This document shows positions 928 through 6,606 of a DNA stretch of 6,606 bases, one piece after another. The translations under genes were made by a program, and so were the position numbers. The notes under the pieces were generated by a model. It saw nothing but the letters and a program-made list of their open reading frames with translations, ran no database searches and was not told where the DNA came from. Origin of the DNA: Planctomycetota bacterium (GTDB taxonomy: Bacteria > Planctomycetota > UBA8108 > UBA1146 > JAJFFE01); NCBI GenBank assembly GCA_020425835.1, contig JAGQRC010000214.1:1-6606 (forward strand). The letters are read 5' to 3'. Positions within the stretch are counted from its first letter, which is position 1. Every line of letters begins with the position of its first letter.

Positions 928-1560
928 ATGCTTCGAGTGACGTTAGGGGCGATCCTCGTTCTGATCGGCGCGATCGGAACGACCGCGGCGGACGAACCCG
1001 CCAAGGAGAAGGACGCCAAGAAGTCGGAAGCCCAGATCAAGGGCTACGAGCAGCTCAGCCTCAAGGACCTCGACGGCAAGGTCGTGACCGCCAAGGATCT
1101 GAAGGGCAAGATCGTCGTCTTCGAGTGGATCGAGCCGATGTGCCCGACCTGCCAGCGGCACGCCAAAGAGGGTTCGATCAACCACTTGGTGGCGAAGTAC
1201 AAGGACAAGAAGGACGTCGTGATCCTCGGCGTCTGCACCAGTCGGAACACCGACGTGGAGGGAATGAAGGCCTTCGCGAAGGAGCGTGATCTCAAGTACC
1301 GAATCCTGATGGACCCGACCGGTGCTGTCGGTCGCATGTTCGGTGCGCAGAAGACGCCCCACATGTACGTCGTGAAGGATGGCGCCAAGCTGTACGAGGG
1401 TGCTCTGGATGACGACGCTCGAGGATCGAAGTCGGAGAAGGAGAGAGTGAACTACATCTCCAAGGCTCTGGACGAGATCCTGGCGGGCAAGAAGGTCTCG
1501 ACCCCGTCGACCAAGCCCTATGGCTGAAACGTCAAATATCCGCGCCAGTCTGGCGCCTGA
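928..1560 (+). CDS. Exported redoxin (peroxiredoxin-like/thioredoxin-fold), probable selenoprotein with C-terminal Sec
   Basis: Residues 1-21 form a signal peptide (MLRVTLGAILVLIGAIGTTA, then A), followed by a lysine-rich linker and a thioredoxin fold at about residues 40-187. MCPTCQRH gives a CxxC pair at Cys72/Cys75, and KTPHMYV supplies the cis-proline strand. Family resemblance is to the peroxiredoxin-like redoxins that from memory close with a motif such as PYGCSVKY. Here the reading is KPYG, TGA (1525-1527), NVKY, then six residues to a second TGA at 1558. The stop falls exactly at the motif Cys and the motif resumes after it, so the TGA is read as Sec at residue 200 of 210. A hairpin suited to SECIS follows. 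The likely role is thiol/selenol redox or peroxide reduction outside the cytoplasm. Stopping at the first TGA would give 199 residues lacking the conserved tail; a fresh nonsense mutation is the main alternative. Confidence 0.85.
1525..1527 (+). other. Recoded UGA, selenocysteine 200 of the redoxin
   Basis: This in-frame TGA occupies the Cys position of the family's PYGC-type C-terminal motif. The codons after it (AAC GTC AAA TAT) still encode the expected V-K-Y portion, and the frame closes ten codons later. Coding constraint past the TGA argues that it is translated. Confidence 0.78.
1542..1556 (+). promoter_or_regulatory. Candidate SECIS hairpin of the redoxin gene
   Basis: A perfect 6-bp stem, GCGCCA/TGGCGC, closes a GTC loop (or AGUCU if the last pair opens). 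The loop starts 20 nt after the UGA, inside the spacing known for bacterial SECIS elements, and begins with G as they usually do. The loop recalls the GGUCU of the E. coli fdhF element. No U-run follows, so it is not an intrinsic terminator. A lower stem could form between TCA (1532-1534) and TGA (1558-1560). Confidence 0.7.
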
Positions 1561-1566
1561 TCGACC

Positions 1567-1607
1567 CGGGCGGTGTTTCCCGCACGTCGATCGGGAAGCA
1601 CCGCCTG
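1567..1607 (+). terminator. Hairpin terminator after the redoxin gene
   Basis: Bases 1567-1582 pair with 1592-1607 through 16 consecutive pairs, two of them G-U, around a 9-nt loop, and a short pyrimidine-rich tail (CTTCGCC) follows. The hairpin begins 6 nt after the second TGA (1558-1560), which fits a coding region that ends there. The U-tract is weak, so termination may be partly factor-dependent. The hairpin could also block convergent transcription from the minus-strand operon. Confidence 0.7.
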
Positions 1608-1707
1608 CTTCGCCTGTTCCACTATTCCGCGGCGAGCGAGTTTCGGACTTCGACGACCGATCTCTATGGAGCTGACGCCCAACGAGCCGCGGCCCGGCGA
1701 CGACCTC

Positions 1708-1947
1708 TCAATCGGTGACCCGATTGGGTCGCAACGTCGCTCTCAGACGATCGACCTCCCCCGTGTCGACCCGAGCATACGCCTCGGCATGCCCCTCCCC
1801 TTCCGATCGGAACCCGGTCGGCGTCGCCTCCATGCCCCACTGCGCCAGCGTCTGACGTAGATGCTCCAAGAAGTGGAGGGCCTTCGGAGCGCCATCCGGG
1901 CCGAAGAAGTCCCAATGGAACGTCTGCGAGTCGGAGGAGTTCGTCAT
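1708..1947 (-). CDS. Small protein of unknown function, 79 residues
   Basis: I do not recognise this gene. It encodes MTNSSDSQTFHWDFFGPDG, then a helix rich in H, L and E (APKALHFLEHLRQTLAQWG), then a turn and a charged C-terminal part ending LRPNRVTD. There is no Cys, signal peptide or membrane segment, so it is predicted to be soluble and cytoplasmic. The pattern of aromatic strand, long helix, Gly-rich turn (TGFRSEGEG), and an alternating strand AEAYARVD suggests a small alpha/beta fold. The start at 1947 has AGGG 6 nt upstream and lies 49 nt after the TlpA-like gene, so it is probably the last gene of that operon. Longer readings through upstream starts would overlap the TlpA gene and give implausible arginine-rich sequence. 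Confidence 0.7.
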   Translation of the reverse strand: MTNSSDSQTFHWDFFGPDGAPKALHFLEHLRQTLAQWGMEATPTGFRSEGEGHAEAYARVDTGEVDRLRATLRPNRVTD

Positions 1948-1996
1948 CGTCGACCCTGCGCGTCGGCGTCGGTAGGCCGCACCACGAACGAAGCAC

Positions 1997-3358
1997 TCAC
2001 TTCGCCGGCTCTCCGGTGAGTGTCTTGGCGAGCGCCTCCAGGGCTTCGGGCGTCGCGGCGCCCTGCTGCGCCTTGCGGACCACACCCTTCCGGTCGATCC
2101 AGACCGTCGCCGGCAGTCGAACCGCACCGTAGTCCCGCACCGCGACGTCGGCACCACCGATCGCCATCGCGTGCTCCACCTTCTCCTTGGCCGCGAAGCT
2201 TCGCGCTTCCGCCTCGGATCCGCTGGTCGCGTTGATCCCGATGATCACCAGGCCCTTGTCCGCGTAGTCTCGATGGAGTCGGGTCAAGTGCGGAGCCTCC
2301 GCACGACAGAGATGTCACGTGAACGAGTAGAAGAACAGCAGGATCACCTTCCCCTGCAACTCGCCGAGCGCGTAGGGCTTCCCGTCGATGCCCCGGAGAT
2401 CGAAGCTGGGAGCCGGAGCCCCCTCGAGCTGGGCGAAACGCACGAGCGGATCGCTCCCCCCCCGCGCCTTCGAGAGCAGTGTCCGTCGCAGCCAAGGCAC
2501 GGCCGGCAAGTACGGTGAATCGTCGTGTTGAGCGACGAACTGCTCGAGAGCCTCGAGCGCGTCGTCGCCGCCGGGGGCATCGCCGAAGTTCCCCGGGAAC
2601 GCCTGGCGCGCCAGCGGTTCGAGCGCGGCCAACCCGGAGATGAGCGCGTGTCGCTGCGTCGAGTCCACCGGCTGGTGCTTCAGCTCACGGGCGCGTACTT
2701 CGCGTCGAGTCTCGACGGTGCGCCGCTCCGTACCCTTCCGGGAACGCAGCACCTCGACCACCTCGAGCACGCGAAACGTGTCGCCGTCCAACCGATAGGT
2801 CTGGGTGCACTCGTCGACGGTGCTCGTCATGGAGCCCGCGGACTCCTCGACCCCCGCCGCCAGCTTCCGCTCGTAGAGGACGCTGCTCGCATCATCGGGG
2901 TGGGCGTCGGATCGGTACTCGACGTCGACCTTCCGCCGCAGGCCCGTTCGGGGCCAGAGCGTCCGCTCGCTACCGCTCGCGTATGCCTCCACGCGATCGC
3001 GAGGAATCTCCCGGGACACGAGGAGAGGCGCGATCAGACTGACGAGCCGACCTCGCGGACTCTCGAGAGGGAAGATCCAGCGCCCCTTCGCATCACGACG
3101 CGCCTCACCGATCGGAATGTCGTACGGCCGCTGATCTCCGGCGTCGTCGACGACGAGGATCAGTCGGAGGGCGCCGCGCGGCTCGGCCAACACGTGGACG
3201 TCGACCTCGAAGCGACTCTGCTTCTCGGTCTCGGTGTCCCCCACCTTCGTTCGTTCGTCGATCGTGATCTCGAATCGAGAGGTGGATTCCGCTTCCTCCG
3301 CGCTCCCGACGCGAGGAAGCAGAGCGACCAAGACCACGAGAATCGAGACCATGCGCAT
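1997..3358 (-). CDS. Exported TlpA-like thioredoxin with UxxC active site (probable selenoprotein), long N-terminal region
   Basis: The protein has 453 residues if the TGA at 2317-2315 is read as Sec. Residues 1-20 form a signal peptide ending VGSA, which chose the ATG at 3358 (AGGT 7 nt upstream) over an in-frame GTG 78 bases earlier. Residues 21-312 are an acidic and arginine-rich region of unknown fold. From about 313 a TlpA/AhpC-TSA domain begins: APAPSFDLRGIDGKPYAL, GKVILLFFYSFT, U348, HLC351, RAEAPHLTRLHRDY, GLVIIGIN, and the cis-Pro416 strand RLPATVWIDRKG. In the family the active site reads FWATWCPPC, so U348 replaces the attacking Cys and C351 is the resolving Cys. The domain on both sides of the TGA is complete and in one frame. 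Its likely role is a thiol/selenol oxidoreductase in the periplasm. It is second in an operon after the VWA-like gene. A nonsense mutation would be the alternative. Confidence 0.88.
2288..2304 (-). promoter_or_regulatory. Candidate SECIS hairpin of the TlpA-like gene
   Basis: On the minus strand GTGCGGA (2304-2298) pairs perfectly with TCCGCAC (2294-2288) around a GGC loop. The 17-nt hairpin starts 10 nt after the UGA and its loop begins 17 nt after it. The minimal E. coli fdhF element is described as a 17-nt upper stem-loop about 11 nt from the UGA, so size and position agree closely. The bulged U of the fdhF stem is absent. Confidence 0.75.
2315..2317 (-). other. Recoded UGA, selenocysteine 348 in the TlpA active site
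   Basis: The TGA sits precisely at the first Cys position of the thioredoxin CxxC motif, giving T-U-H-L-C-R. The resolving Cys and the whole second half of the fold follow in the same frame without another stop until 1999-1997. Cys/Sec exchange at this exact residue is the classic signature of a redox selenoprotein. Confidence 0.85.
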
Positions 3359-3402
3359 CGAGCGGACCTGCCAGACGACTCGGGGGGGGTCGAATCGATC
3401 GA

Positions 3403-3434
3403 GGTCCGAGCGCGACGATCGGCGTGCTCGGACC
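3403..3434 (-). other. Intercistronic hairpin between the VWA-like and TlpA-like genes
   Basis: GGTCCGAGC and GCTCGGACC form a perfect 9-bp stem that extends inward by a G-U and two G-C pairs to 12 pairs, leaving an 8-nt loop (3415-3422). It occupies the 114-nt gap between the two minus-strand genes. No U-run follows, so it is more likely a processing, stability or partial-attenuation element than a full terminator. A run of eight C on the minus strand (3382-3389) follows shortly after. Confidence 0.5.
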
Positions 3435-3472
3435 ACGATGGAAGGAGAGCACAGGTGGGAACCGACGGAGAC

Positions 3473-4171
3473 TCACTGAGCCAACGTGAAGGTCCCGCCA
3501 TTGGCTTGTGCCAACTGCACCCAGAAGACTTCCTCTCCGATCCCGGGAAACTCGGGATAGAAGATCGTGTCGATCGGTATGTGGTGGTAGTTGGCGCCGG
3601 TGATCTCGGTCAGACACTCTTCGGGGTAGTTCGGGCTGAACGTCTCGGTCCAGCAGAACGGCAATCGGTTCCCGAGGAAGAGCATGCGTCGATTCGTGGC
3701 GGGTGTCGAGTTGGCGATCGACACCGTCGTCACGCCGGCGTCGAGAACACAATGACTCTCGATGGCAGGCAGCGAGTCCATCCAGGCGATCGCGGCAGCC
3801 TTGTTGGCGCCCGATGCGCGTTTCGCCTTCCAGGACCAGACGTAGGTCGTGGTGTTGTACGCGACCATCGAGAAGCGGGTACGAGCGGTGAGTTGAGAGA
3901 GCGCATTGCGAATCTCGAGCTTGACCAGCTCGAATTGCGTCGTGCTCCCTCAGAAGTCGTAGGCGGGGAAGCAGAAGAAGAACGCGTCCGCAGAGTACTC
4001 CGCGCCCCAGAAGAGGATGGACTCTGGTGTGTCTTCCTCCTCCTGGCTGGAGTTCGCCGCCGCTCTGGGAAGGTCGAGAGGCCGCGCCCCCGACCGACTG
4101 GAATCCGCCCCCCACACGAAAGCCAAGGCCGAAGCCGCGATCCCGAACGAGAAGAAGAGCGCTCGAAGCAC
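3473..4171 (-). CDS. Exported von Willebrand A-like protein, probable selenoprotein (Sec in the MIDAS-like motif)
   Basis: The protein has 232 residues if the TGA at 3952-3950 is Sec74. The GTG start at 4171 has AAGGAGG 4 nt upstream and opens a signal peptide (MLRALFFSFGIAASALAFVW), followed by a Ser/Glu-rich linker. From about residue 60 the sequence follows a VWA fold: strand ADAFFFCF, then YDF-U-GST, helix FELVKLEIRNALSQL, strand RFSMVAYN, helix KAAAIAWMDSLPAI, strand RRMLFLGNRLPFC, and the C-terminal FWVQLAQANGGTFTL, a common closing motif of bacterial VWA proteins. D72-F-U-G-S76 aligns with the metal-binding D-x-S-x-S. The later MIDAS Thr and Asp seem lost (ESHC, LGNR), so metal-dependent ligand binding is doubtful. 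Other Cys are at 67, 141, 173 and 186. It is the first gene of the operon with the TlpA-like selenoprotein, a possible redox partner. Two separate short genes or a pseudogene are the alternatives. Confidence 0.75.
3915..3933 (-). promoter_or_regulatory. Candidate SECIS hairpin of the VWA-like gene
   Basis: On the minus strand TCGAGCT (3933-3927) pairs perfectly with AGCTCGA (3921-3915) around the loop GGTCA. The loop starts 23 nt after the UGA. With one bulged G (3914) the stem extends by AAT/ATT to ten pairs. GGUC at the loop start matches the loop of the E. coli fdhF SECIS, whose G and U are contacted by SelB. Confidence 0.78.
3950..3952 (-). other. Recoded UGA, selenocysteine 74 of the VWA-like protein
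   Basis: The TGA divides one continuous VWA-like reading frame. The sequence upstream supplies the signal peptide and first strand; the sequence downstream continues the first helix (TTQFELVKLEIRNAL) with no start codon until residue 102. Splitting here would leave both pieces without a complete fold. Confidence 0.72.
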
Positions 4172-4437
4172 ACTTCCTCCTTCCGCAGCGCGTGAGTGAT
4201 TCGACGACGCCGGGTGCCTTGTTCGTCAAGGTCCTTCGTCAGTGACACCTCGTGGTGACACGGCTCTCGTCAGTCGCACTGCTGTCGCAGTCGCGACTGT
4301 TCTCGTCAGTCCCACTGCTCTCGGCAGTGACGGCTGGCTCGTCGACGACGCCGTGAAGCCCGCTCACGCAATGACCATCCCCCCCCGGGGACGTTCCCCA
4401 GCCGACTAGCATGCCGGTCGACCGAAGATCGAGCGAG
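4172..4437. other. Intergenic region upstream of the VWA-TlpA operon
   Basis: This gap holds the Shine-Dalgarno sequence AAGGAGG of the VWA-like gene (4176-4182), a degenerate tandem repeat (4236-4337) and a GGGGA/TCCCC dyad near 4387-4399. A minus-strand frame across the repeat could give a Ser/Asp/Glu-rich peptide, but no usable start or homology supports it. The operon promoter should lie here, though no clear -35/-10 pair is visible. Confidence 0.45.
4236..4337. repeat. Degenerate 36-bp tandem repeat with internal palindrome
   Basis: Copies at 4266-4301 and 4302-4337 match at 20 of their first 22 bases (CTCGTCAGTC, then CACTGCT and TCG), then diverge by a one-base indel. The octamer TCGTCAGT recurs at 4236, 4267 and 4303. 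The first copy holds the perfect 12-bp palindrome CAGTCGCGACTG (4288-4299). GTGACAC occurs twice just to the left, near 4243 and 4256. The array lies 65-170 bp upstream of the VWA-like start. Confidence 0.55.
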
Positions 4438-5089: not shown

Positions 5090-6606
5090 ATGCGAGTCTC
5101 CGGCGCTTTCGGAACGGCGATCATCGCGGGAGTGCTCCTCGCGGCGAACCTCCTCGCTCTCGGCGGGGAGCCGAGCGGCCGACGGATGGACGGCGACCCG
5201 GAACCCCTTCGCCCTCGATCGCCGAGTCCGAGTCGATGGAGAGATCCCCGATCCTCGCGGACGTTCGGCCGCCGGCACCCGAGCCTCGTCGCCCTTCGGT
5301 CGAGCACCGGGTCTCCGTCCTGGTTCGGGACCTTCGATCCCCAGCACCATCGCCCTCGCTGCGTCTACGGTGCCGGCGTGGACCTGAGTGATCCGCTCAC
5401 CGAGGCGCCGGCGGTCATCGCGCGCCGGATCCTCGACGTCCATGTCGAGTGCTTCGCACTCGCCCCGTCATCGTTCCGTTTCGCCCGCGAATCGGTCCGT
5501 GGTCCGATCCACGTCGTCCACTTCGTCCAGGTCTTCGACGGTCTTCCCGTTCGAGGGAGCCGCGCGGACGTGACGCTGCGTCGCGTGGACGATGGGTCGG
5601 GTTCCCACTGGGTCTGGAACCGGCTCGATCTCGAGGCGATCGATGCGGCGCCACGGCCTCTCGTCGGCTTTCGTTCCCCGGAGGAGGCGATCGCGCGCGC
5701 ACAGGCCATCGTGGTCGGGGCGGTGGATGTCCGCGCCCCGCGGCTCGAACTCCTTCCGGTCCCCTCGTCGAACGCGTCCGATGGGAACTGGACGGGACGC
5801 CCGGTCTACACGATCGAGGTCCGCACCGAGCACCCGGTGGCGCTGCGGCGCCTGCACCTCGACGCGCGAACACTGGAGTGTTGCGCCAATGTCGACACCA
5901 CGTGCGATCTCGACGTGGTCGGTCACGCCGAGGGATGGGGATCCCCGGAGCTGTGGCCCGATCTCCCCACCCAACCGCCGGTGCTCCAACCGCTCGCGGG
6001 GCTCCAGATCGTGGTCCCGGGATTCGGAGAGACGATCACCGACGCGCTCGGGAACTTCGTCGTGCCGGGCGGCGGGACCGATCCGGTCGACCTGTGGGTC
6101 GGTCTCCAGGGCCCGTTCGTCCAGGTCCAGAACGCGTCGGGACCGGAGGCGACCGTCGCCGCGACGCTGCTCCCCGGAACTCCGTCGACACTGACCTTCG
6201 GCGCATCGTCGAACGCCACCGAGATCGCTCAGATCAACGGCTTCGTCCATACGAACATCGCGCACGACTTCCTCGCGACGCTCGCACCGAACTCCGCTCT
6301 CGACATCCCTCTGCCCTGCGTCGTCAACGAGTCGACGGGGGGCTGTGTCGCCTACTACTCCGACGGCGAGATCCACTTCTCGGTCGCCGGTGGGGCATGC
6401 GTCAACACCGCGTACTCGACCATCGTCTACCACGAGTACGCCCATGCGATCCTCGACCTCGAGCACGGTTTCGATCCCGGCTCCTACCACGAGGGCATGG
6501 CCGACGCATACTCGGCGCTCCTCACCGATGACCCGAACGTCGGCCTCGCCTACGAGTCCGGACTCGTGCTCCGCAATGTCGATACGCGGGACCGGGGCTA
6601 CCCGGA
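5090..6606 (+). CDS. Secreted gluzincin-type zinc metalloprotease, 5' part (C-terminus beyond the window)
   Basis: An open frame starts with ATG at 5090 and continues for 505 codons to the window edge. Residues 1-26 form a signal peptide (MRVSGAFGTAIIAGVLLAAN), followed by an Arg/Pro/Ser-rich linker. About residues 138-165 (GPIHVVHFVQVFDGLPVRGS) resemble the FTP/PepSY-type propeptide of M4 and M36 proteases. About residues 303-350 (LAGLQIVVPGFGETITDALG, NFVVPGG) look like a small beta-sandwich inserted ahead of the catalytic part. The zinc site is HEYAH at 448-452, with Glu468 in HEGMADAYS as likely third ligand and Glu449 as catalytic base. The likely role is hydrolysis of extracellular protein. 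Family assignment among M36-, M4- or related gluzincins is uncertain because the rest is missing. It is divergent from the unknown 163-residue gene and has no internal TGA. Confidence 0.85.
   Translation, partial: MRVSGAFGTAIIAGVLLAANLLALGGEPSGRRMDGDPEPLRPRSPSPSRWRDPRSSRTFGRRHPSLVALRSSTGSPSWFGTFDPQHHRPRCVYGAGVDLSDPLTEAPAVIARRILDVHVECFALAPSSFRFARESVRGPIHVVHFVQVFDGLPVRGSRADVTLRRVDDGSGSHWVWNRLDLEAIDAAPRPLVGFRSPEEAIARAQAIVVGAVDVRAPRLELLPVPSSNASDGNWTGRPVYTIEVRTEHPVALRRLHLDARTLECCANVDTTCDLDVVGHAEGWGSPELWPDLPTQPPVLQPLAGLQIVVPGFGETITDALGNFVVPGGGTDPVDLWVGLQGPFVQVQNASGPEATVAATLLPGTPSTLTFGASSNATEIAQINGFVHTNIAHDFLATLAPNSALDIPLPCVVNESTGGCVAYYSDGEIHFSVAGGACVNTAYSTIVYHEYAHAILDLEHGFDPGSYHEGMADAYSALLTDDPNVGLAYESGLVLRNVDTRDRGYP

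Follow-up and report, generated by a model that had tools for sequence, protein, structure and literature searches.

Three putative selenoprotein genes and a conserved VWA–TlpA gene pair on a contig of a Planctomycetota bacterium

The stretch of DNA considered here (hereafter the window) comprises 6,606 nucleotides, positions 1 to 6,606 of contig JAGQRC010000214.1 of a Planctomycetota bacterium (GenBank assembly GCA_020425835.1). Between positions 928 and 4171 it carries genes for a VWA-like protein, a TlpA/ResA-like protein and a redoxin, each with a single internal TGA at which selenocysteine (Sec) is most likely inserted; judged from sequence, all three are genuine selenoprotein genes. The VWA-like gene (3473-4171, minus strand, GTG start) encodes 232 residues and is recognized by its read-through frame, its homologs and a predicted VWA fold with a degenerate metal ion-dependent adhesion site (MIDAS). 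Its candidate Sec codon (3952-3950) corresponds to residue 74, in PAYDF-U-GST, and its terminal TGA lies at 3475-3473. In the same direction and 114 bp further on follows the TlpA/ResA-like gene (1997-3358, minus strand), which encodes 453 residues from the ATG picked as start (an alternative upstream GTG lies at 3436) and is identified by Pfam PF00578 (2.1e-19) and by homologs within its class. Here the TGA (2317-2315) falls on residue 348, the first position of a UxxC site in SFT-U-HLC, and the terminal TGA is at 1999-1997. The redoxin gene (928-1560, plus strand; 210 residues; PF08534 at 8.8e-16, with homologs) is convergent to these two and ends in a PYG-U-NVKY tail, with the Sec codon at 1525-1527 (residue 200, in TKPYG-U-NVKY) and the terminal TGA at 1558-1560. 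In none of the three frames does any stop other than the one internal TGA precede the terminal TGA. Standard gene calls end all three genes at the internal TGA, and the window's own pieces appear among the proteins as P0001, P0009 and P0020. The layout described by the initial annotation, two adjacent genes with a convergent neighbor, is thus correct, and the signal peptides it assigned to the three proteins are apparent in all of them, as judged by eye only.

The nucleotides downstream of each TGA were examined with simplified rules for bacterial Sec insertion sequences (bSECIS) after the legend of Fig. 2 in PMC13188914, bulges being excluded: an unbroken stem of at least 4 pairs, a loop of 3-9 nt with a G in its first two positions, a spacing of 16-37 nt and a hairpin energy of -7.5 or lower. 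In the VWA-like gene a SECIS-like hairpin (3914-3934, minus strand) with an 8-bp stem and the loop GGTCA starts 23 nt past the TGA (-10.7 kcal/mol), and the 60 nt starting at the TGA fold at -28.6 kcal/mol. The TlpA-like gene has a 7-bp stem with the loop GGC 17 nt past the TGA (2288-2304, minus strand; -9.9 kcal/mol), and the redoxin gene a 6-bp stem with the loop GTC at 20 nt (1542-1556, plus strand; -8.7 kcal/mol), which stops just short of the terminal TGA. Hairpins that comply with the rules follow all three internal TGAs and none of the three terminal ones (0, -3.4 and 0 for VWA, TlpA and redoxin), against a background of 13 passes among the 112 TGA triplets of the window, the three internal ones included. 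When the aligned sites of the window and 20 fetched loci are compared, 22 of 23 TGA codons pass versus 0 of 18 Cys codons, a count in which many TlpA rows are close kin and from which 13 rows with other residues were excluded; three of the latter (L076, L077 and L083, all Met codons from one kin group) lie just at -7.5. Codon usage under the TlpA hairpin points in the same direction. With the Cys sequence L074 set aside, codons +3 to +9 of the 18 TlpA sequences that carry Sec show a synonymous-codon identity of 0.98 over 6 columns versus 0.47 over 51 other conserved columns, a value reached in 0 of 20000 resamplings. The conclusion that the three internal TGAs behave as Sec codons is supported by these results, and the original claim of one in-frame TGA per gene at a Cys-like site stands, given that relatives carry either Cys or TGA at these positions.

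The redoxin offers the broadest comparison. Both the redoxin domain and the C-terminal PYG(C/U)xVKY tail are present in the window protein, and a protein search returned 68 proteins, 52 of which have Cys at the tail site. Besides the window's own, 14 others end exactly at the Gly before the site (P0021-P0024, P0027 and nine of P0068-P0079), and P0087 is without a tail of this type. The nearest relatives, P0021-P0024, look cut at the TGA in the same way as the window gene. As a stop-codon control, the pattern T-x-[PS]-Y-G-(TRR)-x-V-K-Y was run over the genome contigs and gave 20 matches, namely 17 with TGA, one with TAA and two with TGG. By eye, 16 of the 17 TGA matches have a redoxin upstream (the remaining one, L005, is cut by the contig end), and the frames upstream of the TAA and TGG matches are not redoxins. 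With the window included, 16 of 18 redoxin sites pass the hairpin test, compared with 7.9% of 4328 TGAs in the same loci; the single Cys redoxin encountered scores -3.7. In 10 of the 18 genes (L001, L003, L008-L010, L012, L014, L017, L019 and L020) the terminal stop, nine times TAG and once TGA, lies inside the apical loop of the SECIS-like hairpin, whose pairing is kept while the stem sequences vary among genomes. This position of the stop may be the reason why 16 of the 17 redoxin matches from genome contigs end in TAG.

Almost all relatives possess the machinery that such codons require. All 16 genomes with a TGA redoxin have a tRNA-Sec (E of 1.6e-13 or better) and 15 of them a SelB above the cut-off. 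For tRNA-Sec, a limit of E <= 1e-10 was chosen because all 14 control genomes match at E <= 0.001; at the stricter limit, only Escherichia coli and M. jannaschii do so among the controls. In the class to which genome G016 belongs, tRNA-Sec was found in 26 of 29 genomes (missing in G018, G032 and G034) and SelA likewise in 26 of 29 (missing in G018, G019 and G039). A hand count of AhpC-TSA domain matches in eight genomes of the class gave exactly one in-frame TGA in 43 of 100 and TAA or TAG in none, which supports the view that the related genomes are Sec-rich. The search for Sec genes suggested by the initial annotation therefore turned out positive in relatives. Its view that so many neighboring selenoprotein genes are unusual fared less well: the lineage is indeed Sec-rich and, for that very reason, their density is less odd than was claimed. 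Selenoproteins have also been reported in two Porphyra-associated planctomycetes (PMC4807772). Two side observations concern these genomes. A metagenome-assembled genome labelled Proteobacteria (L020, genome G016) groups in one class with others labelled Planctomycetota, and in G028, G029 and G030 some redoxin or TlpA-like matches contain a second in-frame TGA, which could reflect a UxxU site.

The first 300 or so residues of the TlpA-like protein match no Pfam family; the AhpC-TSA domain that follows them scores 70.1 bits against PF00578 (cut-off 26). The CxxC-type site reads UHLC in the window and UGxC or CKEC in relatives. The cut-off of the NCBIfam model NF041054 (WAxxUGC_long) is not reached (56.4 bits versus 300); indeed, none of the three proteins has an NCBIfam match above cut-off. 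A protein homolog search, in which the 7995 candidates richest in shared words were scored, gave no close relative except the window itself.

The VWA-like protein has no Pfam match at 0.001. Structure searches lead to VWA domains of many functions and hence give no pointer to its own. Judged on the DxSxS loop of the MIDAS, to which the comparison was confined, it is a protein of predicted VWA fold without the canonical metal-site loop, in whose place PAYDFUG stands. VWA proteins encoded next to a TlpA-like protein share PAYxF(C/U)G at this loop, with the variant CAYEF-U-G in G017:C66, and have two other invariant cysteines, C141 and C173 in window numbering. In paralogs on other contigs of the same genomes the loop is still DKSCSM or DRSCSM and the site is occupied by Met, as seen in 16 of 16 full rows. 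Outer genomes contribute four more rows, three with Thr and one with Met at this position, and three further rows are fragments that stop short of it. Conservation continues past the TGA, where identity is 69% to P0002 and 64% to P0003; both of these start at most 30 residues past the site and look cut at the TGA too. In a tree of 27 VWA rows the window forms a clade with these two (100/100), and the other Sec rows are placed too uncertainly for the number of Sec origins to be counted. Scanning the genome contigs with the alignment of VWA proteins turned up no relative. A remote VWA paralog in G030 (L050:1718-2317, contig C213) has an in-frame TGA, in FVGEGTT-U-PARQ, followed at a spacing of 23 by a hairpin with the window-like loop GGTCG; owing to its very long branch and a TGA one column off the site, it is a hint only.

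The two genes on the minus strand belong together beyond the window. When the paired-VWA alignment was compared with a phylum sample of 392 genomes, 18 loci reached at least 330 bits, all of them in 17 genomes of one class, and the next match scored 225 bits. A TlpA-like match adjoins the VWA gene in all 18 (same contig, about 2 kb or less), and a conserved two-gene pair is thereby supported. At most seven candidates were scored per genome, and with this number and the phylum sampling rare pairs elsewhere may be missed. The TlpA site is TGA in 17 of the 18 paired relatives and Cys in one, the sole Cys homolog there; the VWA site is encoded by a Cys codon in all but one of the 18, which has TGA. 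Put together, 17 loci combine a Sec TlpA with a Cys VWA, G017:C66 shows the reverse, and both window genes carry Sec. The initial annotation had suggested that the VWA-like protein might serve the TlpA-like enzyme as a substrate or scaffold. A role as its substrate or partner, still an indirect conclusion, gains strength from the reciprocal Sec/Cys exchange.

The neighborhood of the redoxin is different. A one-TGA redoxin match above 187 bits occurs in 16 of the 29 class genomes and lies on a different contig from the pair in 16 of 16, where some pair contigs span 6-8 kb and others more than 100 kb; G017, with two pair loci, has no such match above 187 bits. Eleven of the 18 pair loci (L068-L072, L076-L078, L080, L083 and L084) do have a redoxin gene no more than about 4 kb away, but it is a different paralog, with neither Cys nor Sec at the tail site, which is Met in nine loci, Ser in L070 and Thr in L072. 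The Sec redoxin belongs to a distinct, wider family of selenoproteins and is probably independent of the pair.

Computation shows in-frame TGAs followed by SECIS-like hairpins, a conserved gene pair whose members exchange Sec and Cys, and the loss of the DxSxS loop. These findings are best explained by three real selenoprotein genes of a Sec-rich lineage, of which VWA and TlpA form an extracytoplasmic redox pair while the redoxin acts independently. We give this explanation a probability of about two in three. TlpA/ResA proteins hand electrons to thiols outside the cytoplasm. With its UxxC site the TlpA-like protein would be a thioredoxin-fold thiol/selenol oxidoreductase, and PAYxF(C/U)G in place of DxSxS would put one reactive Cys or Sec at the former metal position. 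Most probably the enzyme would form a transient selenenylsulfide (or disulfide) with the VWA residue and keep that residue reduced. Direct thiol/selenol exchange between the two would fit, because a single conserved Cys/Sec sits in the former metal loop and because Sec and Cys are swapped between the genes. The actual work at the surface would most probably fall to the VWA protein, whether it is a reductase or peroxidase of the thiol/selenol type or a redox-switched binding protein. In our view it would act on an outside substrate and be reset by TlpA, although we infer which partner takes which role. In the redoxin, the C-terminal Sec is probably the resolving partner of the protein's own CPxC site. 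More tentative is a bolder proposal, to which we give clearly less than even odds: that a metal-binding VWA domain was converted into a redox enzyme, its MIDAS loop turning into a selenol/thiol site that functions only with a dedicated TlpA, that in evolution selenium shifts between the partners as their bond needs at least one Se, and that the two constitute an undescribed selenium-dependent extracytoplasmic pair.

The simplest competing explanation, that the internal TGAs are ordinary stops of split or decaying genes, agrees with the standard code, which ends each frame there. It is very improbable in view of three frames free of other stops and frameshifts, of the conserved sequence past the VWA TGA, and of the hairpins, the stop-codon control and the Sec machinery in relatives; the pseudogenization that the initial annotation had named as a danger has left no trace in these frames, and the Sec reading stands. 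An alternative code, with TGA read throughout as Trp or another residue, could account for the frequent in-frame TGAs of the relatives, but all three window genes terminate at TGA, relatives carry Cys and not Trp at the TGA sites, and tRNA-Sec, SelA and SelB occur in most of them, which makes this idea more improbable still. The stop, pseudogene and TGA-as-Trp readings were dropped after the hairpin, stop-codon and frame tests.

Other alternatives accept the Sec codons and differ on what the proteins do. The Cys/Sec of the VWA protein might be structural or a metal ligand (in a disulfide, for a soft metal or as a fold anchor), with TlpA merely forming or isomerizing VWA disulfides, for which the invariant C141 and C173 could need an enzyme. 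Such a role is unlikely: Sec is seldom retained for structural purposes, both the window and G017:C66 have it at this loop, as does the remote G030 paralog at a position shifted by about one column and with a SECIS-like hairpin of its own, and Cys and Sec are exchanged between the two partners. A little less likely again is the local three-gene module of the initial annotation, in which the redoxin would work with the pair as one selenium-dependent envelope system. All three genes are packed into 3.2 kb and their products look exported, and a non-Sec redoxin paralog often accompanies the pair; the Sec redoxin, however, keeps to other contigs in the class, the window redoxin is convergent and so not co-transcribed, and with Sec genes common in these genomes a neighboring one is little surprise. 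The proposed check of neighborhood conservation accordingly upheld VWA–TlpA and not the linkage to the Sec redoxin.

Several observations weigh against the preferred explanation of three selenoprotein genes with a VWA–TlpA redox pair. Sec insertion and the VWA–TlpA interaction are both deduced from sequence analysis, and the Sec machinery was observed in relatives, the window being placed in their class through homologs. Among these relatives, G018 has a TGA TlpA with hairpin, yet neither tRNA-Sec nor SelA was found in its 2.2 Mb, which are probably incomplete; G019 is without a SelA match, and the SelA match of G023 contains one TGA and one TAA. The redoxin sites of L006 and L011 fail the hairpin cut-off, and the sole TGA miss among the aligned sites is L086, one of three redoxin sites there. 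The paired VWA was found in a single subclade, and since most pair loci are close kin, 18 of 18 does not amount to 18 independent events. Moreover, the pair is co-directional in the window and both G017 loci and divergent in the others, and the genes around it give no pathway clue.

Of the remaining window, 176-619 encodes an ArsR-type regulator (PF12840), followed at 3-176 by what appears by eye to be the start of an SRPBCC-type protein, for which no Pfam match was obtained. Upstream of the VWA gene, 4200-4340 holds short CGTCAGT/CACTGCT-like repeat units, seen by eye. An exported-looking protein with a HEYAH (HExxH-type) motif, perhaps a metallopeptidase, extends from 5090 to 6604 and runs past the contig end; a Pfam search at 0.001 gave no match.

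TlpA selenoproteins as such are already known. Table 1 of PMC13188914 includes a UxxC "Prx-like thiol:disulfide oxidoreductase" and a "UGC-containing TlpA disulfide reductase family protein", and with these and NF041054 the window protein shares the AhpC-TSA domain and Sec in the active-site motif. It differs in having UHLC instead of UGC, in the N-terminal part without a Pfam match, and in the special VWA neighbor of its homologs at every pair locus. The VWA-like protein resembles Planctomycetota VWA domain proteins (VWA_3, PF13768; P0004-P0008) in sequence kinship and predicted fold, but PAYxF(C/U)G replaces DxSxS, with Sec in the window and G017:C66. The redoxin shares its domain and tail with redoxin/AhpC-TSA proteins ending in GCxVKY, with Sec instead of Cys in the window, whereas the "Redoxin family protein" of the PMC13188914 catalogue has UxxC, not GUxVKY. 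Table 1 of PMC13188914, which by its own count covers 119 families or subfamilies, and Table 1 of PMC9312934 contain no VWA protein and no redoxin with GUxVKY. As in the selenoprotein operons SAO and Tso, as presented in PMC13188914, adjoining selenoprotein genes are thought to cooperate; unlike those operons, the window has other protein families and two genes with reciprocal Sec/Cys use.

If true, a VWA-fold selenoprotein with Sec at the metal site would add a non-thioredoxin fold to the selenoproteins and would show a binding domain turning into a redox domain. The reciprocal exchange of Sec and Cys between the members of one gene pair amounts to a natural experiment concerning the reasons for keeping selenium.
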